From contig NZ_JACJKQ010000012.1 of assembly GCF_016901575.1 (NCBI RefSeq), positions 1-60,773 on the forward strand: a stretch of 60,773 bases of DNA, given 5' to 3'. The DNA is from Enorma phocaeensis. Lineage in GTDB: Bacteria > Actinomycetota > Coriobacteriia > Coriobacteriales > Coriobacteriaceae. A model generated the notes under the pieces. That model did not search any database. It worked only from the letters and a program-made list of their open reading frames with translations, and was not told the origin of the DNA. Positions 43,711 through 60,595 of the stretch are shown here, in pieces. Made by a program: the position numbers and the translations under genes. Numbering within the stretch: position 1 is the first letter of the stretch; the number at the start of each line of letters is the position of its first letter.

Positions 43711-44772
43711 TTGGATAAAGAGCAAGTGCAAAAGCGTATGAACGAGGCGATTCGGCTGACCGCGCCGGGGCAGCCCATTCGCGCCGCCCTGGATATGATC
43801 ATCGCGGGGCATCTGGGTGCGCTCATCTGCGTGGGCGACTCCGAGCATGTGCTGGCGGCGGGCAACGACGGCTTCCCGCTGAACATCTCGTTCACCAGCA
43901 ACCGCTTGTTTGAGCTCTCCAAGATGGACGGCGCCATCGTCATCGATGACGACGTCACCCAGATTCTGCGCGCCAACTTCCATCTGAATCCCGACCCTTC
44001 GCTTGCCACGAGCGAGACGGGCATGCGCCACCGCACCGCCGCGCGCATGAGCGTGCTCACCGACGCCATCGTCATCTCGGTGTCGGCGCGTCGCGCCGTG
44101 GTAAACGTGTATGTGCATGGAAAGTCCTACACGATCCAGCCGGTCTCCGACATCATGAGTTCGGTGAACCAGCTGGTCTCGACCTTGCAGACCACGCGCG
44201 CCTCGCTTGACCGCGCGCTGCTGCGCCTGACGGCGTTGGAGCTTGACGACTACGTAACGCTTGCCGACATCACGGACATCTTCTCGAGCTTCGAGATCCT
44301 CCAGCAGGCAAAGGGAGAGCTCGAGTTCTGCATCGTGAAGCTCGGCACGCAGGGCAAGCTCGTGCAGATGCAGCTCGAGCAGCTCGCGGGCACCAGCATC
44401 GACAACGACTACACCCTCATGATTCGCGACTATGCAAGCGATTCCTCCGAGGAGAACGCGCTGCGCATCCGCGAGCAGTTCTCGTCCATGACGCCGCGCG
44501 ACCTCACGAATCCCCAGCGCGTGGCAGAGGTCTTGGGCTATGACGACCTGGACGAGGATTCGGTCATGACGCCGCTCGGCCTGCGCACCCTCTCGCAGGT
44601 TTCCGTGGTGCGCGACGGGGTCGCCGAAAAGATCGTGGATGAGTACGGCTCGCTTCAGGACCTGATGGATGACATCCGCAAGGATCCCGAGCGTCTGGGC
44701 GACTTCGGTGTGAACAATCCCACGATCCTTGCCGATTCGCTCTACCGCATGCAGGGCAAGCGGGGAGCATGA
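43711..44772 (+). CDS. disA: Diadenylate cyclase, DNA integrity scanning protein DisA
   Basis: A 353-aa DisA that makes cyclic di-AMP and scans DNA for branched structures. The DAC domain has the catalytic DGA (73-75, KMDGAIV) and RHR (106-108, TGMRHRTAAR). A helical spine and a C-terminal HhH region follow. I chose TTG 43711 because GGGAG lies 6 nt upstream and the protein then begins MDKEQVQKR; ATG 43693 is in frame but lacks a good RBS. Its stop overlaps the ispD start (ATGA). Confidence 0.94.
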   Translation: MDKEQVQKRMNEAIRLTAPGQPIRAALDMIIAGHLGALICVGDSEHVLAAGNDGFPLNISFTSNRLFELSKMDGAIVIDDDVTQILRANFHLNPDPSLATSETGMRHRTAARMSVLTDAIVISVSARRAVVNVYVHGKSYTIQPVSDIMSSVNQLVSTLQTTRASLDRALLRLTALELDDYVTLADITDIFSSFEILQQAKGELEFCIVKLGTQGKLVQMQLEQLAGTSIDNDYTLMIRDYASDSSEENALRIREQFSSMTPRDLTNPQRVAEVLGYDDLDEDSVMTPLGLRTLSQVSVVRDGVAEKIVDEYGSLQDLMDDIRKDPERLGDFGVNNPTILADSLYRMQGKRGA

Positions 44773-45611
44773 TGGCTCGAGACGAGGTGTCTTCCAGCGT
44801 GTTTGCAGGGTTTGCTGGGCAGCATGCGGCATGCGCTTCTGCGTCCGGAGGCGCGGTCCCGATGCCGCCGGTGTGTGCCGTGATCGTTGCGGGCGGTTGT
44901 GGGTCCCGGTTTGGCAATCCCGGCGGCAAGCAGCTGGTAAACGTGGCGGGACGTCCGCTGGTCGCCTGGTCGATCATGGCGTTTGACCGCTCCTGCCTGG
45001 TCGGCCACATCGTGGTGGTCTGTCCGGCCGAAAAGCGCGCCGAGATGCGCCGTCTCGCCATCGACCCCTTTGATTTCAAGACGCCCATCACCTTTGCCGA
45101 TGCCGGCGAGACCCGTCAAGACTCGACCGCCTCGGGCATCGACGCCGTGCCCATGGGCTTTGAATACGCGGCCATTCACGACGGGGCGCGCCCGCTCATC
45201 ACCACAGGGGCCATCGACAACGCGATACAGGTGTTGCTTGCCGACCGTTCGCTCGACGGCGTGGTGTGCGGACAGCCCGCCATCGATACCCTGAAGATCG
45301 TAGACGGCGAGCGCATCGTGGAGACTCCGCCGCGCAGCATGTACTGGGCGGCGCAGACCCCCCAAATCTTTAGCGTCGAGGTCATGCGGCGCGCCCATGC
45401 CGCCGCCGTCGCCGAAGGGTTTGTGGGCACGGACGACGCCTCGCTTGTGGAGCGCATGGGCGGCGCGGTGCAGTGCGTGGCAAGTCCGCGCGACAATCTG
45501 AAGGTCACGGTGCCTGAGGACCTGCGCCCCGTGACGGCGATCCTTTTGGGTCGCATGAGCGACGCGGAGAGCGCGCAGGACACGGGCGTCATGCCTCGCG
45601 TGCAGCTCTGA
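44769..45611 (+). CDS. ispD: 2-C-methyl-D-erythritol 4-phosphate cytidylyltransferase
   Basis: A 280-aa IspD of the MEP pathway that makes CDP-methylerythritol. The CTP site is AVIVAGGCGSRFGNPGGKQL, and IHDGARPLI and WAAQTPQIFSVEVM are conserved. About 34 residues precede the fold (MMARDEVSSSVFAG...), so translation may start a little later, but the ATG overlapping the disA stop is well placed for coupling. Its usual partner ispF is displaced to 54.3 kb. Confidence 0.95.
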   Translation: MMARDEVSSSVFAGFAGQHAACASASGGAVPMPPVCAVIVAGGCGSRFGNPGGKQLVNVAGRPLVAWSIMAFDRSCLVGHIVVVCPAEKRAEMRRLAIDPFDFKTPITFADAGETRQDSTASGIDAVPMGFEYAAIHDGARPLITTGAIDNAIQVLLADRSLDGVVCGQPAIDTLKIVDGERIVETPPRSMYWAAQTPQIFSVEVMRRAHAAAVAEGFVGTDDASLVERMGGAVQCVASPRDNLKVTVPEDLRPVTAILLGRMSDAESAQDTGVMPRVQL

Positions 45612-45647
45612 CGGACGCCCCGAGACAAAGGAGTTCAACCTACGCCG

Positions 45648-45663
45648 CTGCGCATCGGACATG
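45648..45663 (+). repeat. 16-bp direct repeat of the ispF start, left boundary of the surface locus
   Basis: CTGCGCATCGGACATG is identical to 54315-54330, codons 2-6 of ispF and one base more. Here it follows AAAGGAG (45627-45633) and reads L-R-I-G-H, but no ispF sequence continues. It looks like the truncated original start of ispF directly after ispD, or one arm of an attachment-site duplication. Confidence 0.65.
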
Positions 45664-45811
45664 CGCCGCTAGCACGGGGCGCAGGCGAAGCTGTGGCGGC
45701 GTTCGCCAAACGTATGAACTTATGACGCCGAGGTGCGGGCGCGAGGCCCGTTGCCGCCGAAAAATCCAACCGTAGACCCCATTTTTAGCACACGTTTCCC
45801 CATCTGCCGCG

Positions 45812-45841
45812 TTGACAAAATGAGCGGGGGGGGGGTATGCT
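45812..45841 (+). promoter_or_regulatory. Promoter with a ten-G tract in the spacer (probable phase-variable promoter)
   Basis: The consensus TTGACA (45812-45817) and TATGCT (45836-45841) are 18 bp apart, and the last ten spacer bases (45826-45835) are all G. Gain or loss of a G by slippage would change the spacing to 17 or 19. It directs transcription toward the LRR surface-protein gene at 46080, with a leader of about 230 nt. The gap 45612-46079 contains no other convincing gene, though a 27-codon frame starts at 45880 after GGGGGA. Confidence 0.75.
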
Positions 45842-46079
45842 TTTCAAAGTGTATCTGGACGTGTCACATAGGGGGACGAATGGGAAAGGTGCGTTTGTCG
45901 GCATGGGGAACCCGGCGCCGCGCCGCGTCAGGATGCAGAAACCCGCAGCCGCTGGCTCAATAAGCTCACGGCTGCCGCAGCTCTATCGGGGTTCTCGCCT
46001 TATGGCGGGCAGACCTGGGGAGTCGGATGGAGCATCGGACATAAAACGCAGCAACATCAAACGAAGGACGGGATTTAAC

Positions 46080-49000
46080 ATGGTGCAAGCGATACGGCGG
46101 GTTTTCGCAGCTTTGTGTGTCATCGCATACATGGCGCTCATGCCTGCAAATGCCTGGGCAGAGGAGCGGGAGGTGACCTTCGAAGACGGGGGCGCCTCAT
46201 ATGAGGCAACGATCGACACCGAGGCCCTCACGGCGACGCTCACCGGGCTGAAGCTCACCGAGCAGGTCGCCGAGCTCTCCCTTCCTTCGAGCATCGTCAG
46301 TGATGGCGTCACCTACACGGTCAGCGAGCTTTCTGCCGCGTTAGGTTGGGGCACCCAGTGCGCAGGGGTGACCTCTCTCGTCATCCCCGAGACTGTCACG
46401 AGTGTCGACGGCATGCGCTTTTCAAAGTTTCCCGACCTTACCTCGCTCACCATTCCTGGTTCCGTAAAGAACTTCAACGGCTCGCTACAGAGCATGAGCA
46501 AGCTTCAGACCCTTACGTTTGAAGAGGGTGTTGAAGAGATCTCTTCAAACTTTATGGTGAACAACTGTTCAGCGTTGTCAACCGTTAACCTTCCGAGCAC
46601 GCTCAAGCGCCTGAGCCAACCTGCCACCTTCGAGAATGCCATCTCGCTAACGTCTATTACGTTGCCCGAGGGCATCCAGATAACCGAAGGCAGCACCTTT
46701 AGTGGTTGCACATCGCTGACGAGCATCGTTCTGCCTGCATCGATCGACGAGATTGTATCCAGCATGTTTGCTGACTGCACCGCGCTCACAACGGTCGAGG
46801 CGAAGGGTGTCATCACATCCGTTGGGCAGGGCGCCTTCTCAGGGTGCACAGCGCTCACCACCATACCTTCGCTTTCTTCGGTGACATCTATCGGGCACTC
46901 TGCATTCAAAGAGTGCAGGGCGCTGACGGGGCCGATCGATCTCTCGCAGGTCACCACGCTCGGGTCGTATGCGTTTTATAACTGCAGGAACTTAACGGGA
47001 GACCTTGACTTGGGTAACGTCACGTCTATCCCTACCTACGCGTTCTCGTATGTGACGGCACATGTGACCGCGCTCAACCCTGCCATCACCTCAATCGGCA
47101 CGTGGGGTTTTGTGTGGACCGACCTTTCGGCGGTGGGGTTGCCCGAACGTTTGAAAAGCATCGGATCGTATGGATGCTACGGTGCCGATCTGCCCGACCC
47201 GTTGGAGGTGCCGGATGGCGTTACCTCTCTGGGCGCCGGCGCGTTCGATAATACGGGTCTCACTCAGATTGTGCTCGGCTCAAGTATCGAGACTGTCAAT
47301 GCCAACGTGTTTCCCAGCACACTTAAGAAGCTCACCATCAACAATAGCGAAGACATCGTGAAGATCGAAGGCGCGCTCCCAACGAGCTGCAAGGCGAATT
47401 ACACGGTGCCATCGCTCAAAGATGCGGGCGATACGATAGCTGAGAACGGAAAAGCTCTTCAGGAAGCGGTGAAAGATGCCGCCTCGGGCGAGGTCATTGT
47501 GCTGCGCAAGAACGTGACCCTTAAGGATGGGCTGACCATCCCCGCGGGCAAAGACATCACCATCAAGTCCGATGGCGAGACCCGGTACCTCTTTGCCTCG
47601 AAAGATGGCTCCATCAACGACCTCATTGTCGTTGGAGCAGGTGCGCATGTGACGTTTGCGGGGGAGGGCTCCGGCGAGCTCGTCCTGTTTGGACGGTACA
47701 ACGAGCACAGCGTCGTATCTTCTCAAGGTGTGGTGACGCTCTCCGAGGGAGCCCGTGTTACCCGTGCTTCGATTTCGACTGATAGCACAGGTGTGGTGGA
47801 GGCTTCGGGTGAGGGCGCGAGCATCGAGGTTGCCGGCGGTGTCATCGACTCGTGCAAGGTGCTTGATGATGCCGCTTACAGCGCGCCGGTGCGTGTGAGC
47901 GACGGTGCCTCGTTCATTATGACGGCAGGTTCTATAGAGCAGAACATCGCAACGGATGCAGACCCGCTCAACAGCTCTTCGGGCGTCCTCATGTTGGGGA
48001 ATGCCACGGGCTCCATGTCCGGTGGCGCCATCCGGGGCAACAGCGGCGTGCGCGGGGCGGCCCTTATGCTGTTCGGCAATGAAGATGATGCCAGGACAAC
48101 CTTCACGTTATCCGGCACGGCGCAAATCGGTGGCAACGTGTGCTCCGCTGCTAACAAGGCCAACGTAAGCGCCTCGGGTGCCGTGCATGTCGAGAGCAAT
48201 GCAACATTCACCATGGATGGCGGCGCCATTGACGGGAACCGCGGCGGCAACGGCGCTGGGGTGTGCGTGGTTGACGGAAACCTGCAGAACGATGAGCAGG
48301 AGTACAAGACCGCATTTGTCATGAACGGCGGTTCGATCTCGAACAATCATGGCTTCACGGGTGCTGGCGTGTACTCATATACCAACGGAGTGACGCTCAA
48401 CGCAGGCTCCATCACCGGCAACACCGCCACCAAGATGGGCGGCGGCGTGTATAGCGAGGGAAACTACGATCACTACAGCACGCTTCATATGAGCAATGTC
48501 CTGGTGACCGAGAATACCGCGCCCCAGGGCGGCGGCATGTGGTTCTGCGCGACGGGGATCGCGCGACTGTATGTGTCCGAGGGCGCTGCAGTGTTTGGAA
48601 ACGCTGCCGTGGTGGACGGGTTCTGGCGCGCAGCGGGTGATGACTTCGTATTCTCGGCGTTTGCGAACGACGCTGGCAGATACGATGCAGAGGTCGCTAG
48701 CAGGATGCTCGGCGGAGGTGCCGTGTCGTGGATGGAAGACGGCAGGGTTAGACTTCAGGCTAGTTCTGGCGTCTACCCATCGGTGAATCCAGACGTCCCT
48801 CGCTATGGTGAAGAAGGGGCTAGCACAGAGCCGATCGATACCACGCGCATCACGTCGTGCATGGCGCTCAAGGCCGTTTCCACTACGGATGCTCAGGATC
48901 TTGCCAAGACCCAGGCAAAGCTCATCATCTCGGGTAACACTGCGGGCTGGTACGGAGGCGGCGTGGCTTCGAACGGCGGCATTACCGTCGGCAATGATGA

Positions 49001-49628
49001 GGAAACGCTTTCGGTTGAGGTCTCCAAGGTCTGGTGCGACAACGATGACGCCGCTGGCAAGCGTCCCGAATCGGTGACCGTTCATGTGCTGAATGGCGAG
49101 AAGAGGATAGATACGGCTGTGCTCAGTGCGGCCAACAATTGGAAGGCGACGTTTACCGGCCTTCCCGCCAGGGGCGCCTACAGCGTCGTGGAGGACGTTC
49201 CCGCAGGATACCAAGGGACCGTGACAGGCAATGCGGGCGACGGCTTCGTGCTTACGAACACCTATGTCCCAAGTACGACGCCGGACGACGGCCCCGACAA
49301 TCCGCCGACGTCCCCAGATGAGCCAGATGAGCCGGATACGCCTGACACGCCGGACGAGCCGGATACCCCGGATACGCCTGACACGCCGGACGAGCCGGAT
49401 ACCCCGGATACGCCTGACACGCCGGACGAGCCCGACACTCCCGACACTCCCGACACGCCGCAGAGTCCTAACGAGCCACAAGCTCCGGATGATTCAGGCG
49501 ATGCTGAGGAACCCGGGCTGCCCAAAACGGGCGACTCGTCTGTCGCGCTCGCGCTTGTTGTGGGCTTCGCCGGTGTCGCGGCGATCGTGGTGGCTATCGC
49601 CGTTTGGAGGCGTGCCCGTCGTCGATAA
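46080..49628 (+). CDS. LPxTG surface protein with BspA-type leucine-rich repeats, beta-helix and Cna-B domain
   Basis: A 1182-aa cell-wall protein, likely an adhesin. A signal peptide (VFAALCVIAYMALMPANAWA) is followed by BspA/LRR_5 repeats from about 60 to 430 (TSLVIPETVTSV, LTSITLPEGI, YAFYNCRNLTG). Then come beta-helix repeats rich in GGxIxGN (about 480-960) and one Cna-B domain (VSKVWCDNDDAAGKRPESVT, about 980-1060). A Pro-Asp-Thr stalk leads to LPKTG (1147-1151), a membrane segment and RRARRR. ATG 46080 has AAGGA 11 nt before it. The promoter is probably phase-variable. No sortase gene is in the window. Confidence 0.92.
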   Translation: MVQAIRRVFAALCVIAYMALMPANAWAEEREVTFEDGGASYEATIDTEALTATLTGLKLTEQVAELSLPSSIVSDGVTYTVSELSAALGWGTQCAGVTSLVIPETVTSVDGMRFSKFPDLTSLTIPGSVKNFNGSLQSMSKLQTLTFEEGVEEISSNFMVNNCSALSTVNLPSTLKRLSQPATFENAISLTSITLPEGIQITEGSTFSGCTSLTSIVLPASIDEIVSSMFADCTALTTVEAKGVITSVGQGAFSGCTALTTIPSLSSVTSIGHSAFKECRALTGPIDLSQVTTLGSYAFYNCRNLTGDLDLGNVTSIPTYAFSYVTAHVTALNPAITSIGTWGFVWTDLSAVGLPERLKSIGSYGCYGADLPDPLEVPDGVTSLGAGAFDNTGLTQIVLGSSIETVNANVFPSTLKKLTINNSEDIVKIEGALPTSCKANYTVPSLKDAGDTIAENGKALQEAVKDAASGEVIVLRKNVTLKDGLTIPAGKDITIKSDGETRYLFASKDGSINDLIVVGAGAHVTFAGEGSGELVLFGRYNEHSVVSSQGVVTLSEGARVTRASISTDSTGVVEASGEGASIEVAGGVIDSCKVLDDAAYSAPVRVSDGASFIMTAGSIEQNIATDADPLNSSSGVLMLGNATGSMSGGAIRGNSGVRGAALMLFGNEDDARTTFTLSGTAQIGGNVCSAANKANVSASGAVHVESNATFTMDGGAIDGNRGGNGAGVCVVDGNLQNDEQEYKTAFVMNGGSISNNHGFTGAGVYSYTNGVTLNAGSITGNTATKMGGGVYSEGNYDHYSTLHMSNVLVTENTAPQGGGMWFCATGIARLYVSEGAAVFGNAAVVDGFWRAAGDDFVFSAFANDAGRYDAEVASRMLGGGAVSWMEDGRVRLQASSGVYPSVNPDVPRYGEEGASTEPIDTTRITSCMALKAVSTTDAQDLAKTQAKLIISGNTAGWYGGGVASNGGITVGNDEETLSVEVSKVWCDNDDAAGKRPESVTVHVLNGEKRIDTAVLSAANNWKATFTGLPARGAYSVVEDVPAGYQGTVTGNAGDGFVLTNTYVPSTTPDDGPDNPPTSPDEPDEPDTPDTPDEPDTPDTPDTPDEPDTPDTPDTPDEPDTPDTPDTPQSPNEPQAPDDSGDAEEPGLPKTGDSSVALALVVGFAGVAAIVVAIAVWRRARRR
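49330..49460 (+). repeat. 36-bp tandem repeat encoding the DEPDTPDTPDTP stalk
   Basis: Nearly identical 36-bp units (49351-49386 and 49387-49422) with partial units on both sides encode D-E-P-D-T-P-D-T-P-D-T-P. The count can change by slippage, altering stalk length. A related but less regular stalk is encoded at about 53485-53640 in the second surface gene. Confidence 0.85.
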
Positions 49629-49718
49629 GGTCGATTGCGCTTTGGCCTGCAGGTCAGTGCTGCCGAGTTATGAAAGCGCCTCGGCACCGATGCGTGACTC
49701 TGGGAAGGAGGGTTTCGT

Positions 49719-50084
49719 ATGGCAGGGCGAAAGCTCGCAGATGACGTGCCGCGCATACACGGCAGGCACGCGTTCTCGTACGAACGCGTGCTCGTCCTGA
49801 TTGCGTTTGGTACGGCGGGCAGCAGTGCCCGAGGTCCGGTGCCTGCTGCCGACAACGCAGACGGGCTCGTCATGGCAAAGGCCGATATGGCCAAGATGCT
49901 CGGCGTGTGCGAGCAGTCCATCAACCGATCGATTTCCAAGCTCGTCAAGTTGAAGCATGTCGAACGCGTGCCCCGCGCGGGCGACACGGGTGCCTCGCTT
50001 GCCAACCTGTATCGCGCTACGCCCGATGGCGTTCGGGAGGCGTCGCGCCTGATGGCTGCCATGTTGGGTACGGGCGACTCGTAG
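49719..50084 (+). CDS. Small winged-helix DNA-binding protein
   Basis: A 121-aa protein with a MarR-like winged helix in its C-terminal two thirds: MAKADMAKMLGVCEQSINRS is the helix-turn-helix, SISKLVKLKHVERVPRAGDTG the recognition helix and wing, and LYRATPDGVREASRLM the last helix. AAGGAGGG lies 6 nt before the ATG. It is sandwiched between two surface-protein genes on the same strand, so it probably regulates one or both; this is inferred from position only. Confidence 0.8.
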   Translation: MAGRKLADDVPRIHGRHAFSYERVLVLIAFGTAGSSARGPVPAADNADGLVMAKADMAKMLGVCEQSINRSISKLVKLKHVERVPRAGDTGASLANLYRATPDGVREASRLMAAMLGTGDS

Positions 50085-50304
50085 CTCGGCGCTCGCTACA
50101 TAGCCGGTCGGTTGGCGTCGATATGACGAGGACGACGTATGGGATGGAAGCTGAAAGATCTGGGGAGGAGATTGTGGATACGTTGAGGCTCAAACTGGTA
50201 AGAGACAGCCATGCCAAAAGGGTGTTCCAAGACTAAGATTACGCTCGTTCGGGAGCCTTGTCGCATGCACGCTGACGCTTCTGTGCGCGCTGTGCTTTGT
50301 CGGC

Positions 50305-53300
50305 GTGCCGGCGAGGGCGTATGCGACGGAATCCGTGACCACGTGGGATGACCTTGCTAACGCAGTGGAAAAGGTGTCTTCCGAATCGCCGGTCGATATT
50401 TCCGCGTCTGGTACCTTGACCGCGGACAGCTCCGTTTCGATTCCTGAGAATGCCGACGTCACCATAACCTTCGCAGACGACGCCGCTATCGACCGCGGGC
50501 AGTCGGACGACAAGGATGACAGCCCGACGTTCATCGTTGCCAAGGGTGCGAGGCTCACCATCACCGGCAGCGTTACCGTTAACGGTGACACGGGTATGTT
50601 CGTACAGGTAGCAGAGGGCGGCTCGCTCACCCTCAACGGCAGCATTGCCGCCGACGAGGTCAATGGAGAAGAGAGCTTCATTGACGTGGCGGGCAGTCTT
50701 ACCCTAAACGCCAACGGCTCCGTGAGCGGGTGGAAAGGTGTCGAGGACGGCGCCTCTGCCGTAGAGGCAAGCGGCGAGAATGCGAGCATCACCGTGAACG
50801 GTGGCAGCATTACCGATAACTCGGGCACCTCGCGCGGCGGCGTGCAAGTGCTCAAAGGTGCCACCATGACTATGGAGGGCGGCTCGGTCACCAACAACAG
50901 GCTCACTGGCGGTAACAGCTATAGCTATGGTGCGGGCATCTATCTTTCGGGTGGCAGCACGCTCACTGCAGAAGGCGCTGCCATTACTGACAACTGCGGC
51001 AAATATGAAGGCGACTGGAGTAGACGCCAGCAGGCAGGCGGCGGTATTGCCGTCACGGGGGTTGGCAGCACGGTTACTCTTACCAACTGTAAGGTTGAGA
51101 GGAATCGCGTGGCGAACAACAGCGGCTGGGCTGGCGGCGGCATCTACGCCGCGAACAAAGCCCGCGTCACCGTTACGGGCGGCAGCATCTCGAACAACTC
51201 GGCCTTCACGAGCGATGACCACACGCAGCATGAGAGCGGTGGCGGTGGTGTCTACGCCACGGGCGATGCGGTAGTTTCTCTCACAGACGTTACGATTAAC
51301 GGCAACACCGCTCTGCTGGGGGCTGGTCTATACCTCAACGGCGTTGCGGGTGCGAGGATCGAGGACTGCACCGTTTCGGGTAATATGACGCTGCGAGATA
51401 GCAGCCCGAGCGAGCCCTACAGCAACTCCAGCGTTGGCGGCGGCATCCTCGCCCGGACCTCCGGTGGCGGCCTCACGCCCCCGGGCGGCGGGTCCGATGC
51501 TGAACCCACAGGCATCCAGATCGTCGACACCACGGTGAGCGGCAACACCGCCACGCAGGGCGGCGGTGGCGTCTGCGTGCTGGGCGGCGACGTCGCCATG
51601 CGAAACGTAAAGGTTACGGGCAACGACGCTCCGCAAGGTGGCGGCATGTGGATTCAGGGCAGCTCCGATGTGACGCTCGACAACTGCACCGTGGGCAGCA
51701 ACGAGGCGTCTGCCGCCGGTGGTGGAATCGGTGCTGGCGCAGGCGAGCTTACGCTTACCGAGACCTCGGTAAGCGAGAACACGGCGGGCGAGGCCGGTGG
51801 CATTTATAACGGTGGCGCCGACATTACCCTCGTGAGCGGCTCCATCGCCAACAACATCGCTCTCAGGGCGGGCGGCGTAGAGAACGTTGGGGCCTTCACC
51901 CAGGAGGGAGGGGATATCACCGGCAACCAGGCGACAGCGGAAGAGGGCCAATCTGAGGATCAGGCCCTCGCCGGCGGCGTGGCTAACATCACGGGCACCT
52001 ATACCATGGAAGGCGGCCGCATCTTTGGTAACACGGCTGCGTATGGTGCGAACGACTTCTATAACTACGCCGAGCCCACCGAGGAAGGCGGCGACGAAGG
52101 CCAGGGCGGAGGCATCGACGTCGACGACAGCTGGGAAGGCGACCACGACATGGGTCTCGACTCGGTAGGGGGAGAGACGCGGCCTGGTCTCGCCGCCGCG
52201 CCGGCGCCTCGAGCCAACGAGCACGGCACCTTCACCCTTATCGACCCCTCCGGCTTTATCCTGGGCGTGGACGGCTGGTACGAGGACAAGCCGGACGCTC
52301 GCTATAAAGACACCGATGAGGCTGACCGCGTTAAATACGAGATTGTCGAGAACGACACTTCCGAGCAGTACCTCACGCTCGGCGAACCCGTAATTGCCGG
52401 CACCCTTACCTTGGAGCCTCGGGACATGGTTGCCTATACGGGTGGCGACTCTATGGACAACGACAACTTCCCCGAGGTCCGCTATCGCGTGAGCGCTGAT
52501 GACGATCTTTCTAAAGCGCTTGATGAGGGGGACGTTGGGCTTGCGCTGCTGGTTGACGGCGATTCCGTGTCACTCGATGCCGAGGATGCGACCGTAGGTG
52601 ATGGAACCATCGTCATCCCCGAGTTGGACGCCGCTTTCTCGCTTGAGGAGGGCTCTGCTGCCGATGATGACGAGGTGGCGGGCGTCTACGATGTGGTCAT
52701 CTCGGATGACGACGTTGCGGCAACGCTTTCCGACGGCCGTCTTGTGAATGTCAAGGTCGCCACATCCGATGAGGAGCCTGCCACGCTTACGGTACGCACC
52801 GTCTCAAACGCCAGCGAGGCTGCGGGCGAGGAAGGCACCGCTGATGTGGTGGCCGCCAATCCCGTTATTGTGGGCGAGACGGCGACCGGCGAGCAGGATA
52901 GCGCGCTTGCCACCGCTACGGTTGCTGCTGGCGCCACGTTCTTCACCAACGGCGACGACTCGATGGGCCTGCTCGGCATCGATGGCGCCGACCCCGATAG
53001 CGGCGCACAGGTGTCGCTGCTCTTCGATGACTTGCTTCCTGTTGAGAACGGTACGACCGCCGACACCGAGGCGCTGCTTGCCAAACATGCCGGCATCGAC
53101 GCATCATCGACCGAGTTCAAGTACCTCGACTTGGTGAATGAACACGACGGCAATGTTTGGGTGAGCACGGACTCTGACATCACGATCTCTTGGCCTGTTC
53201 CCGAAGGCGTGGACCCCAGCAATGTCACGTTTGCCGTGCATCACTTCAAGGGCCTGCATCGCGAGTACGGTGGGGCCGGATCTCCTGACGCCGCCGATCA

Positions 53301-53781
53301 GATTGCCAAGAGCGAGGTGGAGGTTATTCCATGCAGTGTCGTAGACGGACGTGTGGTCTTCACGCTTGACGGCGATGTCGAGGACGGCAGCTTCAGCCCG
53401 TTTGCACTCACGTGGACGAAGGCGTCTGATCCGGGTGGCGACACGCCGGATCGTCCTCCGGTGAATCCCGGTGGCGATGACGATCCCGATACGCCAGATA
53501 CCCCCGACACTCCGGTGGATCCTGAAGATCCTGACACCCCGGATACCCCTGATGAGCCGGATAGCCCCGAAGATCCGGATACGCCTGACGCCCCAGTTAC
53601 CCCGGAGACTCCCGAGGAGCCCCAGGATCCAAACGTGCCCGAAGATCCGCAAGACTCCTCAGGCTCAACGGATCACATTCTGCCCTCCACCGGCGACGTG
53701 GCCCCCATAGTCGTGCTTATAGCCGCCGTCGGAGGAGCTGCCGCCCTTGTCGGCTCTGCCCGGATGCGTCGTAAGAGATAG
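50305..53781 (+). CDS. LPxTG surface protein with beta-helix repeats; signal peptide out of frame with the ATG
   Basis: From GTG 50305 this is 1158 aa. Polymorphic beta-helix repeats (GGSITDNSG, GGGIYA, GNTATQGGGG) fill about residues 60-580. Less repetitive beta-rich domains, a PDTPDEP stalk, LPSTG (1126-1130), a membrane helix and RMRRKR follow. The signal peptide core FGSLVACTLTLLCALCFVGV is read in the same frame upstream of 50305, but no ATG, GTG or TTG occurs in that frame back to the stop at 50152. ATG 50211 is one base out; deleting one base in CCAAAAGGG would give MPKGVPRLRLRSFGS and a complete signal peptide. The gene is frameshifted, phase-off, or miscalled there. Confidence 0.85.
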   Translation: MPARAYATESVTTWDDLANAVEKVSSESPVDISASGTLTADSSVSIPENADVTITFADDAAIDRGQSDDKDDSPTFIVAKGARLTITGSVTVNGDTGMFVQVAEGGSLTLNGSIAADEVNGEESFIDVAGSLTLNANGSVSGWKGVEDGASAVEASGENASITVNGGSITDNSGTSRGGVQVLKGATMTMEGGSVTNNRLTGGNSYSYGAGIYLSGGSTLTAEGAAITDNCGKYEGDWSRRQQAGGGIAVTGVGSTVTLTNCKVERNRVANNSGWAGGGIYAANKARVTVTGGSISNNSAFTSDDHTQHESGGGGVYATGDAVVSLTDVTINGNTALLGAGLYLNGVAGARIEDCTVSGNMTLRDSSPSEPYSNSSVGGGILARTSGGGLTPPGGGSDAEPTGIQIVDTTVSGNTATQGGGGVCVLGGDVAMRNVKVTGNDAPQGGGMWIQGSSDVTLDNCTVGSNEASAAGGGIGAGAGELTLTETSVSENTAGEAGGIYNGGADITLVSGSIANNIALRAGGVENVGAFTQEGGDITGNQATAEEGQSEDQALAGGVANITGTYTMEGGRIFGNTAAYGANDFYNYAEPTEEGGDEGQGGGIDVDDSWEGDHDMGLDSVGGETRPGLAAAPAPRANEHGTFTLIDPSGFILGVDGWYEDKPDARYKDTDEADRVKYEIVENDTSEQYLTLGEPVIAGTLTLEPRDMVAYTGGDSMDNDNFPEVRYRVSADDDLSKALDEGDVGLALLVDGDSVSLDAEDATVGDGTIVIPELDAAFSLEEGSAADDDEVAGVYDVVISDDDVAATLSDGRLVNVKVATSDEEPATLTVRTVSNASEAAGEEGTADVVAANPVIVGETATGEQDSALATATVAAGATFFTNGDDSMGLLGIDGADPDSGAQVSLLFDDLLPVENGTTADTEALLAKHAGIDASSTEFKYLDLVNEHDGNVWVSTDSDITISWPVPEGVDPSNVTFAVHHFKGLHREYGGAGSPDAADQIAKSEVEVIPCSVVDGRVVFTLDGDVEDGSFSPFALTWTKASDPGGDTPDRPPVNPGGDDDPDTPDTPDTPVDPEDPDTPDTPDEPDSPEDPDTPDAPVTPETPEEPQDPNVPEDPQDSSGSTDHILPSTGDVAPIVVLIAAVGGAAALVGSARMRRKR

Positions 53782-54311
53782 TCATCGCTCGCGTGCCCAC
53801 GCTGTCGTGCGCATAAGCTGACCGGCGCTTCGCTGTGGCCCTGCGCGGTATCCCATGAAGCCTTTGCGGCAATGGGTACCGTGCGGGGCCGTTGCTCATA
53901 TCTGCATAGCTCAGGTAGTCCATCTAGGTACGACGAGGCTCCGAACGTGCCCCCGGCTCTTCCAGGGTGGCTGCGTTCCTCTATACACGCCTCGACGGCG
54001 TGCCTGCTTGCGGGTTCAAGCGCTGCCCGCGGCGGCTTCGCTGGGAGATGCGGGCTATGCTGCCGGATGCGCGGGGGAGGGCATGCCGCCTGCTCAAAGT
54101 GAGACTAGGCTGCCCATAGTCTCGGTCTGAGCCCGTTTCAAGCCCGAAACTGAGACCACATCGCCCAAGGGCTCAAACGCCGCGCCGTTCTCCCGCACAA
54201 TCCGAGCCTAGGGTGCGTCTGGTCTCAGAATCGTCGCCAGCCCGTGGATTCCCCGCGCCGCGCTCCATGCGCTATGATGCCAGTCAAATGCCGACACTGG
54301 GAAGGATTACA
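53782..54311. other. Intergenic region before ispF with inverted repeats
   Basis: 530 bp without a credible gene. Positions 54101-54123 form GAGACTA/TAGTCTC, which overlaps a second imperfect hairpin, GTCTCGGTCT with AAACTGAGAC (54119-54155). CTGGTCTCAG occurs again near 54220. TATGAT at 54271 may be the -10 of ispF. An SRP-like string near 53970 did not fold as a small cytoplasmic RNA. Confidence 0.5.
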
Positions 54312-54791
54312 ATGCTGCGCATCGGACATGGTTATGACGTGCATCGGCTTGTGGAGGGCCGGCGCTGCATCATCGGCGGGGTGGACATCCCCCACGACAA
54401 GGGGCTGCTGGGCCACTCCGACGCCGACGTGCTGGCGCATGCCTTGGCGGATTCGATTCTCGGCGCCTGTCGCGGCGGAGACATCGGCAAGCTCTTTCCC
54501 GACACCGACCCTGCGTACGAGGGGGCGGATTCCCTCAAGCTCCTCGCCGCGGTCATGGAGTATGCCCGCGAGCGCGGCTACGAGTTCGTAGACGCCGATT
54601 GCACCATCGCCTGCCAGGAGCCCAAGATCAGCCCGTTTCGCGAGCAGATGCGAGCGAACCTTTCGCGGGCGCTCGGCGTCGACGTGGAGCAGGTGGGGGT
54701 GAAGGCCACGACCACCGAGCGTCTGGGCTGGGAAGGCAAGGGCGAAGGTGTCGGCGCGTGGGCGGTCTGTTTGCTGGAGAAGCGGGCATAA
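54312..54791 (+). CDS. ispF: 2-C-methyl-D-erythritol 2,4-cyclodiphosphate synthase
   Basis: A 159-aa IspF. The zinc ligands lie in GHGYDVHRL (Asp9, His11) and LLGHSDADVLAHALAD. KATTTERLGWEGKGEGVGA is the CMP-binding C-terminus. AAGGA lies 7 nt before ATG 54312. It follows the surface locus instead of ispD, and its second to sixth codons are duplicated at 45648-45663. cysS begins 242 bp downstream. Confidence 0.97.
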   Translation: MLRIGHGYDVHRLVEGRRCIIGGVDIPHDKGLLGHSDADVLAHALADSILGACRGGDIGKLFPDTDPAYEGADSLKLLAAVMEYARERGYEFVDADCTIACQEPKISPFREQMRANLSRALGVDVEQVGVKATTTERLGWEGKGEGVGAWAVCLLEKRA

Positions 54792-56693: not shown

Positions 56694-56796
56694 AGTAATT
56701 TTCAAAAGGCACAAATCTACTTGACCTCTCATGCTAGCCGGTATATTCTTCTTAGTAGGCTAATTGATTTTGTAATTTTTAGGAGGCACAAAATCA
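56694..56796 (+). promoter_or_regulatory. Promoter of the type I R-M locus, flanked by a ~24-bp direct repeat
   Basis: TTGACC (56721-56726) and TATTCT (56744-56749) are 17 bp apart. GTAATTTTCAAAAGGCACAA (56694 on) recurs as GTAATTTTTAGGAGGCACAA (56772 on); the second copy carries the AGGAGG ribosome-binding site of the next gene. Confidence 0.65.
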
Positions 56797-57371
56797 TGGC
56801 GCTGCTAAGAGATGCGGCTCAATTAATTAGCGGAACGCCGCAATTCCGTATCACAGAGGATTGGGGAGACGCTGCGCCGCGTTACGTCATTTACTCCCAG
56901 ATGGATTTGGAAGATGATTCAAGGGGTCTGATTACCCAGCGTGCTGGAGGTAAGCAGGTAAAGACATGGGATGTCGTTGTAACGGCATCGACAGGCGATG
57001 TGATATTCAGCCTTCTGTCCGGGACAGCTGTCATCGCGCAGGCTGAGCATCATGGCTACTTGTTAACGCAAAACTATATCAAGCTCATTCCTGTTGGCGA
57101 GATTGATGCTTTCTATCTCGTATACCTGCTAAACGAAAACCGATTAATTAGGCGGCAGCTTAGGGTTGGCCAGCAGGGGTCTAGCACCATGAAGTACACG
57201 TTAAGGCAGCTGCGCGAACTGGAGCTGCCGCAGCTTCCCAGCCTCAAAAGGCAGGAGCTTATTGGTAGGGCGTACGCATGCCAGCTCAAACTTGACGCTC
57301 TAAGAAAGCGAATGTCCGAGCGCGAAACTATTCTGGTACGAGAAATGATGAGAAGGGCGGACCGGCAATGA
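56796..57371 (+). CDS. hsdS: Single-domain type I restriction specificity subunit (half HsdS)
   Basis: A 191-aa protein with one target-recognition domain (ISGTPQFRI near residue 11, then TQNYIKLIPVGEIDAFYLVYLL) and one C-terminal coiled coil (LPSLKRQELIGRAYACQLKLDALRKRM). Normal HsdS has two of each and about 400 aa. Such half subunits can dimerise to read palindromic sites, or may be remnants. AGGAGG lies 9 nt before ATG 56796. Its stop overlaps the hsdR start (ATGA). Codon use is more AT-rich than that of the core genes. Confidence 0.8.
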   Translation: MALLRDAAQLISGTPQFRITEDWGDAAPRYVIYSQMDLEDDSRGLITQRAGGKQVKTWDVVVTASTGDVIFSLLSGTAVIAQAEHHGYLLTQNYIKLIPVGEIDAFYLVYLLNENRLIRRQLRVGQQGSSTMKYTLRQLRELELPQLPSLKRQELIGRAYACQLKLDALRKRMSERETILVREMMRRADRQ

Positions 57372-60300
57372 ACAACACTATCGACAAGAGCGAGCTGCAG
57401 TTTGAGTCCGACCTGATTCAGTACCTGTGCAGCGGTGCCATCACGCAGCCTTCTTCCGCGACATGGGGCATCGTGCGAGAAAAGCCCGTTGACTACGTGG
57501 TCAAAACCAAGCTATGGACCTACGAGCCCGCCATCAAGACTACCGAGCAGCTCTGGGACAACTTCAAGAAGATTTTGGAGCGCCACAACCAAAGCACACT
57601 CGACCATCCCCTGAGCGCGCTCGAGTTTGCCCAGGTGAAAAAAGCAATCGCTGATCTTCAGACGCCCTATCAGGCGGGTCAGTTCCTCTACGGTCTCAAC
57701 GGAGTGTCGCAAATCGAGGTTGACCTTGACGACGGCCGTCATGCGTTCCTCACGGTCTTTGATCAAAAGCAGATCGGTGCTGGTGACACCATCTACCAGG
57801 TAGTGAACCAGATTGAGCGTCCGGCGAGGGTTCCGGGCAAGCAGAACCGCCGATTTGACACGACGCTTCTCATCAACGGACTGCCCATCATCCAGATAGA
57901 GGAGAAGCGCGACACGCACGACGTGGATGAGGCTCTCAATCAGATGCAGCAATACATTGACGAAGGGCAGTACCGCGACATCTACTCAACCCTGCAGATA
58001 CTTGTTGCCATAACGCCAAATGACGCAAAGTACATGGCAAACACCACCAGCGAGAAGTTCAACAAAGACTTTGCGTTTCGATGGCAGAGAAAGAGCGACA
58101 GCGCCGTCGTGCGCAACTGGAAGGAGTTTGCCGACTCGATGCTCTCCATCCCCATGGCGCATCAGATGTCAACGAATTACATGATCTTGGACGGAACCAA
58201 GAACAAGCAGTGCCTCAAGGTCATGCGCCCGTATCAGGTCTATGCTACCCAGCGAGCAATCGAGGGCGTCAAGCACGTCGACTTTGATCTGGGCGTCAAC
58301 AAGGTGGGCTACATCTGGCACACCACTGGGTCTGGCAAAACCATCACCAGTTTCAAGACTGCGTGGCTCGCAAGTCGCCTGCCAGGGGTTGACAAGGTCG
58401 TGTTTCTGGTGGACCGGATCGCGCTCACCAAACAGACGCTCGAAAACTATCGTGCGTACGACCCTGATGCGGCGGGCGACCTGCTCGGAAGCATCCGCAA
58501 CACCGACAACACGTCCGACCTGAGCCGCAAGCTCAAGTCCAAGGGCAACGACATCATCGTGACCTCGGTCCAGAAGCTGGAGAGGCTCGTCAAGCGCAGG
58601 TCGTTCCAGGCACCCGAGAAGAACATCGTGTTCATCGTAGACGAGGCGCACCGTTCGACCGGAGGGGAGGCGTTCGAGACCATCCAGAAGGCGTTCCGGC
58701 ACGCGGCGTGGCTGGGCTACACTGGCACTCCCATGTTTGACGAGACCACGACCGGCCTGCGTACCGAGGACATCTTCGGCCCGCTCCTGCACGCGTACAC
58801 CATCCGCGAGGCTATTGCCGACCGCAACGTCTTGGGCTTCCAGGTGGACTTTGAAACGACCATATCCGAGCAGGCGATGAAGGAGGATTACCTACCGCAG
58901 TTCTACCGCGACCAGCACCCCGACTGGTCCGAACGGCAGATTGAGCGCAAGATCGCAAACCTCACTCCGGACGACATGGACGATGCGATCGAGCCAAGCT
59001 TCTATGACGAGAACCCCGATCACGTGCGGGAGGTGGTGCGGGACATCTTTGACAACTGGCGCAACCGCTCAGCCAACGGCAGATATAACGCGCTGCTCAC
59101 CACGCACGTGGGTGGAGGCAGGGCGTCTACGCCCATGGCCATGATGTACTACCGCGAGTTCCAGCGCGTGAACGCCGAGCGGCGAGCCGAGGGCAAGCCC
59201 GCGCTCAAGGTTGCCGTCACCTTTAGCCAGAGCACCTCAAACAGCGACTTCATGCTCGAGACAAACAAGGGGCTCTATGAGGCCATCACTGAGTACAACC
59301 AGGAGTTTGGAACGAGTTGGGGCATGGACGACGTCTCCGGCTACACGCAGGATGTTATGGCGAGGCTCAACAAGACGTCGGACGACGGCGTGTTTCTCGA
59401 CCTGGTAATCGTGGTTGACCAGCTCCTGACTGGTTTTGACGCGCCCGAGCTCAATACCTTGTATGTGGACCGCACGCTCAAGGGCGCAGGCCTGATCCAG
59501 GCGTACTCGCGCACGAACCGCATTGCGGACATGCAGGAGAAGCCGTGGGGCCACATCGTCAACTACCGCTGGCCGGCGCAAAACGAGCGGCTCATGAACC
59601 AGGCGCTGGCCATCTATGCAAATCGAGGCTCCGCCAACCTCACCGACGAGCAGCGCGGCAGGCAGAACGTGCTCGACGGCATTACCGCCCCTGAGTTCGA
59701 AGAGGTATTCCACCAAGTCAAGGAGAAAGTTGCCAAGCTAGCTGATCTGACTCAGGACTTTACGCAGCTTCCCCCATCGGAAAAGCAGAAGGAGCTCATG
59801 CTCGACCTGCTACGCGAGTACAACGCTGGCATGGCAAAGATCAAGCAGTTCAAGCCGGATGAGCTTGGCGGCGAGAAGGTCGGCTTTGATTACGACAACC
59901 CTGACGAGCTGTTGCGCGCGTTGGGCATGGAGCCCGATCAGGAGAGGATGCTCACGACATCGCTGGCAAACGAGCTCAAGGAGCATCTTGCCAAGGCGCA
60001 GAACGTGCCAGCCTATCAGATCGAGCTGCGCATGACGCACGTCAAAGAGATCAAGGTGGACTACGACTACCTGACTGAGCTCATCGAGGCGCTGCTCAAC
60101 GCCGTTCACGAGAAGAAGGCGAGGCAAGTCGAGGAGACGAGGGCCAAGATCGAGCAGTTTGCAAGCGGTCTTGCGGACCGCACGTATGCGGGGAAGATTA
60201 TGCGTGCCGTGGGCGCCATCGTACGTGGCGACTATCCTCCGGCCGACTCTGGCGTGACCTACCCGGTGAAGTTGGAAACCCAGGGCGATGGCGAGCGGGT

Positions 60301-60595
60301 CATCCAGGCGGCGAGCAACGCGAGCCTTGACCGATCTCTGCTCGACTTTAGGTTGAAGTGGGGCATAACCGAGGTAGTCAAGAGCGCTCAGATGCGCGAG
60401 CTGTTTAGTCGTCACCGCTTTGGGCAGCAAGACCTTGACGATACGGGCGCAATCACGAGGATAGTTGCCGAAGCATCGGGTGAGTATAAGACGATGGCGA
60501 CGGACGAGGCGGTGCAGTCGCTTTCGCGCATCAAGTATCGAAACGCCCTTCGCGACGCGATCTACGACATGGCCGACGAGTTGACAGAGAGCTAG
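57368..60595 (+). CDS. hsdR: Type I restriction endonuclease subunit R
   Basis: A 1075-aa HsdR motor-nuclease. The PD-(D/E)XK nuclease has Asp164 (RRFDTTLLING) and Glu178-x-Lys180 (IIQIEEKR). The helicase has Walker A TTGSGKT (319-325), the DEAH box (425-428, VDEAHRS), the motif III region LGYTGTPMF, and motif VI QAYSRTNR. The C-terminal helices bind the M/S core. ATG 57368 overlaps the half-HsdS stop by 4 bp. An hsdS follows 9 bp downstream; hsdM is not in the window. Confidence 0.95.
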   Translation: MNNTIDKSELQFESDLIQYLCSGAITQPSSATWGIVREKPVDYVVKTKLWTYEPAIKTTEQLWDNFKKILERHNQSTLDHPLSALEFAQVKKAIADLQTPYQAGQFLYGLNGVSQIEVDLDDGRHAFLTVFDQKQIGAGDTIYQVVNQIERPARVPGKQNRRFDTTLLINGLPIIQIEEKRDTHDVDEALNQMQQYIDEGQYRDIYSTLQILVAITPNDAKYMANTTSEKFNKDFAFRWQRKSDSAVVRNWKEFADSMLSIPMAHQMSTNYMILDGTKNKQCLKVMRPYQVYATQRAIEGVKHVDFDLGVNKVGYIWHTTGSGKTITSFKTAWLASRLPGVDKVVFLVDRIALTKQTLENYRAYDPDAAGDLLGSIRNTDNTSDLSRKLKSKGNDIIVTSVQKLERLVKRRSFQAPEKNIVFIVDEAHRSTGGEAFETIQKAFRHAAWLGYTGTPMFDETTTGLRTEDIFGPLLHAYTIREAIADRNVLGFQVDFETTISEQAMKEDYLPQFYRDQHPDWSERQIERKIANLTPDDMDDAIEPSFYDENPDHVREVVRDIFDNWRNRSANGRYNALLTTHVGGGRASTPMAMMYYREFQRVNAERRAEGKPALKVAVTFSQSTSNSDFMLETNKGLYEAITEYNQEFGTSWGMDDVSGYTQDVMARLNKTSDDGVFLDLVIVVDQLLTGFDAPELNTLYVDRTLKGAGLIQAYSRTNRIADMQEKPWGHIVNYRWPAQNERLMNQALAIYANRGSANLTDEQRGRQNVLDGITAPEFEEVFHQVKEKVAKLADLTQDFTQLPPSEKQKELMLDLLREYNAGMAKIKQFKPDELGGEKVGFDYDNPDELLRALGMEPDQERMLTTSLANELKEHLAKAQNVPAYQIELRMTHVKEIKVDYDYLTELIEALLNAVHEKKARQVEETRAKIEQFASGLADRTYAGKIMRAVGAIVRGDYPPADSGVTYPVKLETQGDGERVIQAASNASLDRSLLDFRLKWGITEVVKSAQMRELFSRHRFGQQDLDDTGAITRIVAEASGEYKTMATDEAVQSLSRIKYRNALRDAIYDMADELTES

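Follow-up and report, generated by a model that had tools for sequence, protein, structure and literature searches.

The window (the whole stretch of DNA analysed here, 60,773 nucleotides) very probably contains, at positions 45812-45841, a promoter-spacer switch that would make a surface adhesin gene of Enorma phocaeensis phase-variable. What we read there is a sigma-70-type promoter with a slippage-prone G10 run in its spacer. Slipped-strand mispairing in replication would cause Gs to be gained or lost, and a changed G number would alter both the distance and the rotational phase of the -35 element relative to the -10 element. Such a change in spacing would modify the transcription rate of the LPXTG LRR adhesin gene, the outcome being reversible high, low or off states between sister cells. 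The initial annotation had already proposed a phase-variable promoter, and this reading gains from our comparisons: surface genes in several families of the order are preceded by the same layout, for which the control gave zero sites, and orthologous tracts differ in length. For Enorma phocaeensis itself, what we infer is that slippage occurs, where the transcript begins and that expression depends on the number of Gs.

Promoter anatomy and the gene presumed to be under its control

The features of the promoter, of the gene that it would control and of the genes downstream are the following:

45812-45817, + strand: -35 hexamer TTGACA, 6/6 (sequence reading, promoter scans)
45818-45825, + strand: AAATGAGC, 8 bp between the -35 hexamer and the G tract (sequence reading)
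45826-45835, + strand: G10 tract GGGGGGGGGG, 3' part of the spacer and proposed slippage site (sequence, recurrence)
45836-45841, + strand: -10 hexamer TATGCT, 4/6, directly adjoining the G tract (sequence, promoter scan)
45848-46079, + strand: presumed 5' leader, ~230 nt, from the inferred transcript start
46080-49628, + strand: gene of a secreted BspA-type LRR / Cna_B protein with an LPKTG sorting signal, 1182 aa, ATG at 46080 (domain search, sequence)
49719-50084, + strand: small winged-helix-like ORF, weak Crp/MarR HTH match (domain search)
50305-53781, + strand: gene of a second large surface protein, right-handed beta-helix, C-terminal LPSTG (domain search, sequence)

The TTGACA and TATGCT hexamers and the 18-bp spacer, of which the last ten bases are G, are present exactly as first annotated, with a -10 score of 4/6. 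As in phase-variable promoters of the porA/fetA type, a homopolymer lies between recognisable -35 and -10 elements. A sigma-70-type scan of positions 45612-46080 returned this site as the sole promoter-like match of at least 9/12; it also has the highest sigma-70-like score between the end of ispD (45611) and the start codon at 46080, and the top promoter score (10/12) within 45500-50400. An ATG at 45820 falls within the spacer. Searched at the nucleotide level, 60 relatives gave only short spurious matches to the promoter region.

The large LPxTG adhesin-like protein claimed downstream was borne out by domain search (LRR_5, 2e-54; Cna_B, 1.5e-17), by a hydrophobic, signal-peptide-like N-terminus at 46080, and by a C-terminal part with a PDTPDEPD-rich region, LPKTGDSS, a hydrophobic segment and a basic tail. 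The LRR_5/Cna_B domains, N-terminus and LPKTG motif are those of a surface-exposed product, and LRR_5 domains together with an LPXTG sorting signal characterise a BspA-type LRR sortase substrate.

At ~230 nt, versus ~45-130 nt from tract to start at most comparable sites, the presumed leader is unusually long, so another promoter for the adhesin gene is possible. The leader carries a 27-aa ORF at 45880, preceded by a good ribosome site (AGGGGGACGA). Positions 45848-46079 gave no Rfam match above the gathering score (weak chance matches only); with no Rfam family and a fold z-score of -1.2, which is not unusual, a structured leader or riboswitch was rejected.

Judging from its spacing, the ORF at 49719-50084 is possibly co-transcribed with the adhesin gene, and the surface-protein gene at 50305-53781 possibly lies on the adhesin transcript too. 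This last gene may have a 5' frameshift or an unusual start. By eye, a signal-peptide-like stretch can be seen upstream of 50305 (50211-50340) in the frame of the ORF; the ATG at 50211 is in a different frame. The ispD and ispF genes, which are commonly adjacent in bacteria, are ~8.6 kb apart in the window (44769-45611 and 54213-54791), and the gap holds the two surface-protein genes and the winged-helix-like ORF. Type I restriction genes, namely HsdR and an S-subunit-like ORF (weak MAD5 match), occupy the window end (56721-60595).

Rarity of G runs and recurrence of the layout

Apart from the G10, the longest G/C run in the window has 6 bases, and the 2.36-Mb assembly has three G10 runs, including the tract at 45826-45835. 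The G10 alone is not improbable by base composition (shuffled sequence would give ~2.8 G8 matches, and 3 overlapping ones were seen). Long G runs are nonetheless strongly depleted in this genome, about 15-fold, with seven G9+ runs seen versus ~105 expected from composition, and three G10+ runs versus ~33. With three G10 runs in the genome, TANNNT would directly follow any one of them, together with an exact TTGACA at one of 7 spacings, with a chance probability of ~1.4e-5. None of the genome's other six G9+ runs, considered as similar switches, has a convincing flanking promoter. Another G10 (L122 1949-1958; G000:C56:33449-33458) is located 3'-terminally in an ORF of 357 aa, where slippage would alter the C-terminus. 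One contig end (C45 start, L008 1-33), near a G9 run, consists of Nextera adapter (AGATGTGTATAAGAGACAG), an assembly contamination which indicates that the assembly is short-read; the G10 length in the assembly may be off by one.

Within the family, 67 genomes were searched for G9+ followed by TANNNT within 6 bp, and all G9+ tracts were counted in 37 genomes (369 tracts). Direct abutment to TANNNT was found for 15 of the 369 tracts, versus 2.3 expected from composition (binomial p~1.6e-8) and a mean of 3.8 tracts at the other six offsets (Poisson 1.2e-5, hand count). Of the 31 directly abutting tracts of the family, 15 are preceded by a hexamer that matches TTGACA in 5/6 positions or more, with a spacer of 15-21. 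The same test gave 0/31 when the windows were shifted by 10 and 20 bp, and 4/91 for other G9+ tracts, which came from the listed places minus loci already fetched and are not strictly a random sample (Fisher 1e-7 versus 15/31, inflated, like the p-values of the other comparative tests, because several compared loci are mutually homologous). Genes behind such tracts in the family encode DltA, DUF6020 membrane proteins, LPXTG proteins and a SipW-like peptidase, where DltA and SipW are presumptive names that we take from AMP-binding and peptidase S26 matches and from general knowledge. DltA acts in the D-alanylation of teichoic acid.

At the level of the order, the pattern TTGACN-N(6-12)-G8+-TANNNT is found at 20 sites in 18 of the 150 genomes (15 genera), while the reversed-pattern control yields 0 sites. 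One example, TTGACAAAATGCGCT-G10-TACGCT, very nearly matches the site at 45812-45841, and in another (TTGACA-G17-TAAACT) the spacer is entirely G. Promoter-type sites in the order mostly precede secreted, membrane or wall genes, the products including choline-binding, CWB2, InlB-like repeat, LRR and subtilase proteins and a surface lipoprotein. A ribosome site and a signal/membrane N-terminus are found downstream of 15 of the 30 promoter-type tracts versus 6 of the 89 other tracts (p=8e-7, which is optimistic since some loci are mutually homologous). Other families of the order also have G16-G20 tracts that separate TTGACA from TANNNT (L242, L247, L249 and L250), and at two of these sites the entire spacer is G.

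The nearest family homologue of the adhesin (43% identity) belongs to another genus and has TTTGAC-G10-TACAGAATATC, a presumed promoter, 49 bp ahead of its ORF. The flanks there and those of the tract at 45826-45835 do not align, suggesting independent origin or rapid divergence, and because the -10 of the homologue is not obvious we count its tract as supporting rather than decisive. No G tract precedes a Firmicute homologue whose upstream region was readable (L018), which gives no sign that the tract came along with the gene from Firmicutes.

Tract length, spacer length and alternative readings

Tract lengths were compared between species, with one genome per species. Two species share the promoter TTGACTTTTCGTGCA-Gn-TACGCT, one with n=9 and the other with n=8; the 80-bp flanks are 97-100% identical, and there is no other indel. 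Similarly, a conserved TTTAATGT-Gn-TAC(G/C)AT promoter of the SipW-like peptidase gene has n=9, 9, 9, 9, 10, 11 and 13 in seven genomes, and the DUF6020 promoter tract is G9 versus G10 between orthologues. A non-promoter tract has 10 versus 12 G, with flanks 99-100% identical. As lengths differ between near-identical orthologous flanks, the tracts change faster than their surroundings. The DltA promoter, TTGCCA-N10-Gn, has n=9, 11 and 11 in three species (L100, L067, L213; L220-L223), and teichoic-acid D-alanylation may be phase-variable via the dltA promoter. Only 3 of the 12 DltA orthologues with an upstream region read carry a G tract, which is thus not a fixed feature of the DltA operon; in the promoter of a fourth species, the tract has decayed. 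Coding G tracts were also observed near start codons in relatives, including in Flp-pilin-like ORFs (L110 2214, L115 1854, L090 1914, L134, L181, L183, L189), and orthologues differ (G9 versus G10), as in a parallel set of translational switches.

These comparisons make it improbable that the promoter is constitutive and the G run harmless, varying slowly with little effect on expression. Such a reading accords with composition, which alone yields G runs of this length, and with the evidence on the tract in Enorma phocaeensis, which is one genome with the single length G10. However, although long G runs are ~15-fold depleted here, surface genes across the order repeatedly have one between the -35 and -10 in front of them (control 0), and orthologous promoters differ in tract length.

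Very unlikely is a translational switch, in which the true start would be the ATG at 45820, followed by AGC-Gn, so that the tract would shift the reading frame. With G8 or G11, the frame from 45820 is indeed that of the adhesin ORF (whose first upstream stop is at 45813), while with G9 or G10 it stops after 16 or 46 codons, and coding-tract switches are present in the family, both in the orthologous ORFs of L110 and L115 (G9 versus G10 in codons 10-13) and in Flp-pilin-like ORFs. Yet the ATG at 45820 has no Shine-Dalgarno sequence before it, a fusion from there would bury the signal peptide (start 46080) behind ~87 residues, the tract is placed precisely between consensus promoter elements, and that of the orthologous adhesin in the other genus is outside the ORF. 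Finally, we give hardly any credence to a tract that would set operator spacing for a regulator or form an odd DNA structure instead of setting sigma-factor spacing, as no conserved operator is seen beside it, unrelated sites share just TTGAC and TANNNT (themselves the search terms), and a single G10 run cannot form an intramolecular quadruplex.

Slippage in the promoter spacer, the reading that we favour, would be promoted by a lack of mismatch repair. MutS domain I (PF01624) is absent from the profile matches in all 15 genomes considered, this one included, and 11 of the 14 control genomes were positive. The 30 promoter-type sites have spacers of 15-21 bp (from searches that admitted only 14-21 bp), 19 bp being the commonest (11 sites) and 18 bp the next (6), with three sites at 17 bp. 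If 17 bp were the best spacing, as the initial annotation assumed, G9 would be the ON state. This optimum is doubtful here and may not hold, because the assemblies mostly show 18-19 bp: either the states caught in most assemblies are weaker ones, or 18-19 bp is the best length for a G-filled spacer.

Known systems and biological meaning

Several known switches resemble the proposed one. In Neisseria meningitidis porA, a poly-G lies between -10 and -35, and one G lost or gained changes transcription (PMC3899988). Both tracts are inside the spacer and both controlled products are surface proteins, but porA encodes a Gram-negative porin, an unrelated gene in an unrelated lineage, and the effect was measured for porA whereas it is predicted for Enorma phocaeensis. 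The fetA/frpB gene of Neisseria gonorrhoeae likewise has a homopolymer in its promoter spacer, a poly-C between -10 and -35 that ranges from C10 to C14 between strains and whose length changes transcription (PMC5320596); it differs in having C on the coding strand, in the gene concerned and in its documented strain variation. As the porA and fetA spacer tracts alter transcription, the promoter in the window should switch likewise. Repeat number also sets the -35/-10 spacing of the Haemophilus influenzae adhesin genes hifA/hifB (PMC3899988), there with a TA dinucleotide repeat in a divergent promoter instead of a G run. Switches of the nadA type reportedly act via the spacing of distal elements (PMC2791445), which speaks for the operator-spacing reading.

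A further such system is that of Bifidobacterium breve UCC2003, a gut actinobacterium with G10-G12 tracts in the genes of a sortase-dependent pilus, for which slippage was measured: in one B. breve culture, a G11 tract was 37% G11, 59% G12 and 3% G10 (PMC9187656). These pilus tracts differ in lying within coding sequences, where they decide the fusion of two ORFs; the same paper briefly names promoter spacers as another place of G-tracts, giving no details (PMC9187656). In the open-licence literature (subscription papers were outside reach), searches under Collinsella and Eggerthella found no report of phase variation by homopolymer slippage for Coriobacteriales, and papers on Collinsella and phase variation were off topic by title.

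We think it somewhat likelier than the contrary that the order, as a lineage without detectable MutS, has a stereotyped switch, TTGAC-N(about 9)-G(9-10)-TANNNT, independently placed before genes for adhesins, wall-binding proteins, DltA and membrane proteins. This switch would diversify surfaces stochastically; its working spacing may be 18-19 rather than 17 bp. The locus itself is of the porA/fetA type, and the possibly new part may be the repeated use of this spacer-tract architecture across the order. In our assessment, the interesting part is this lineage-wide repertoire, the mechanism being that already known from Neisseria porA/fetA. Natural promoters of this kind, ~30 in number and with spacers ranging from 15 to 21 bp, provide material on how RNA polymerase reads G-filled spacers. 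If the proposal is true, intestinal actinobacteria (probably Coriobacteriales) widely vary their surface proteins by promoter-spacer slippage, and probably the charge of their teichoic acids as well, which would help account for strain heterogeneity in adhesion and immune recognition.
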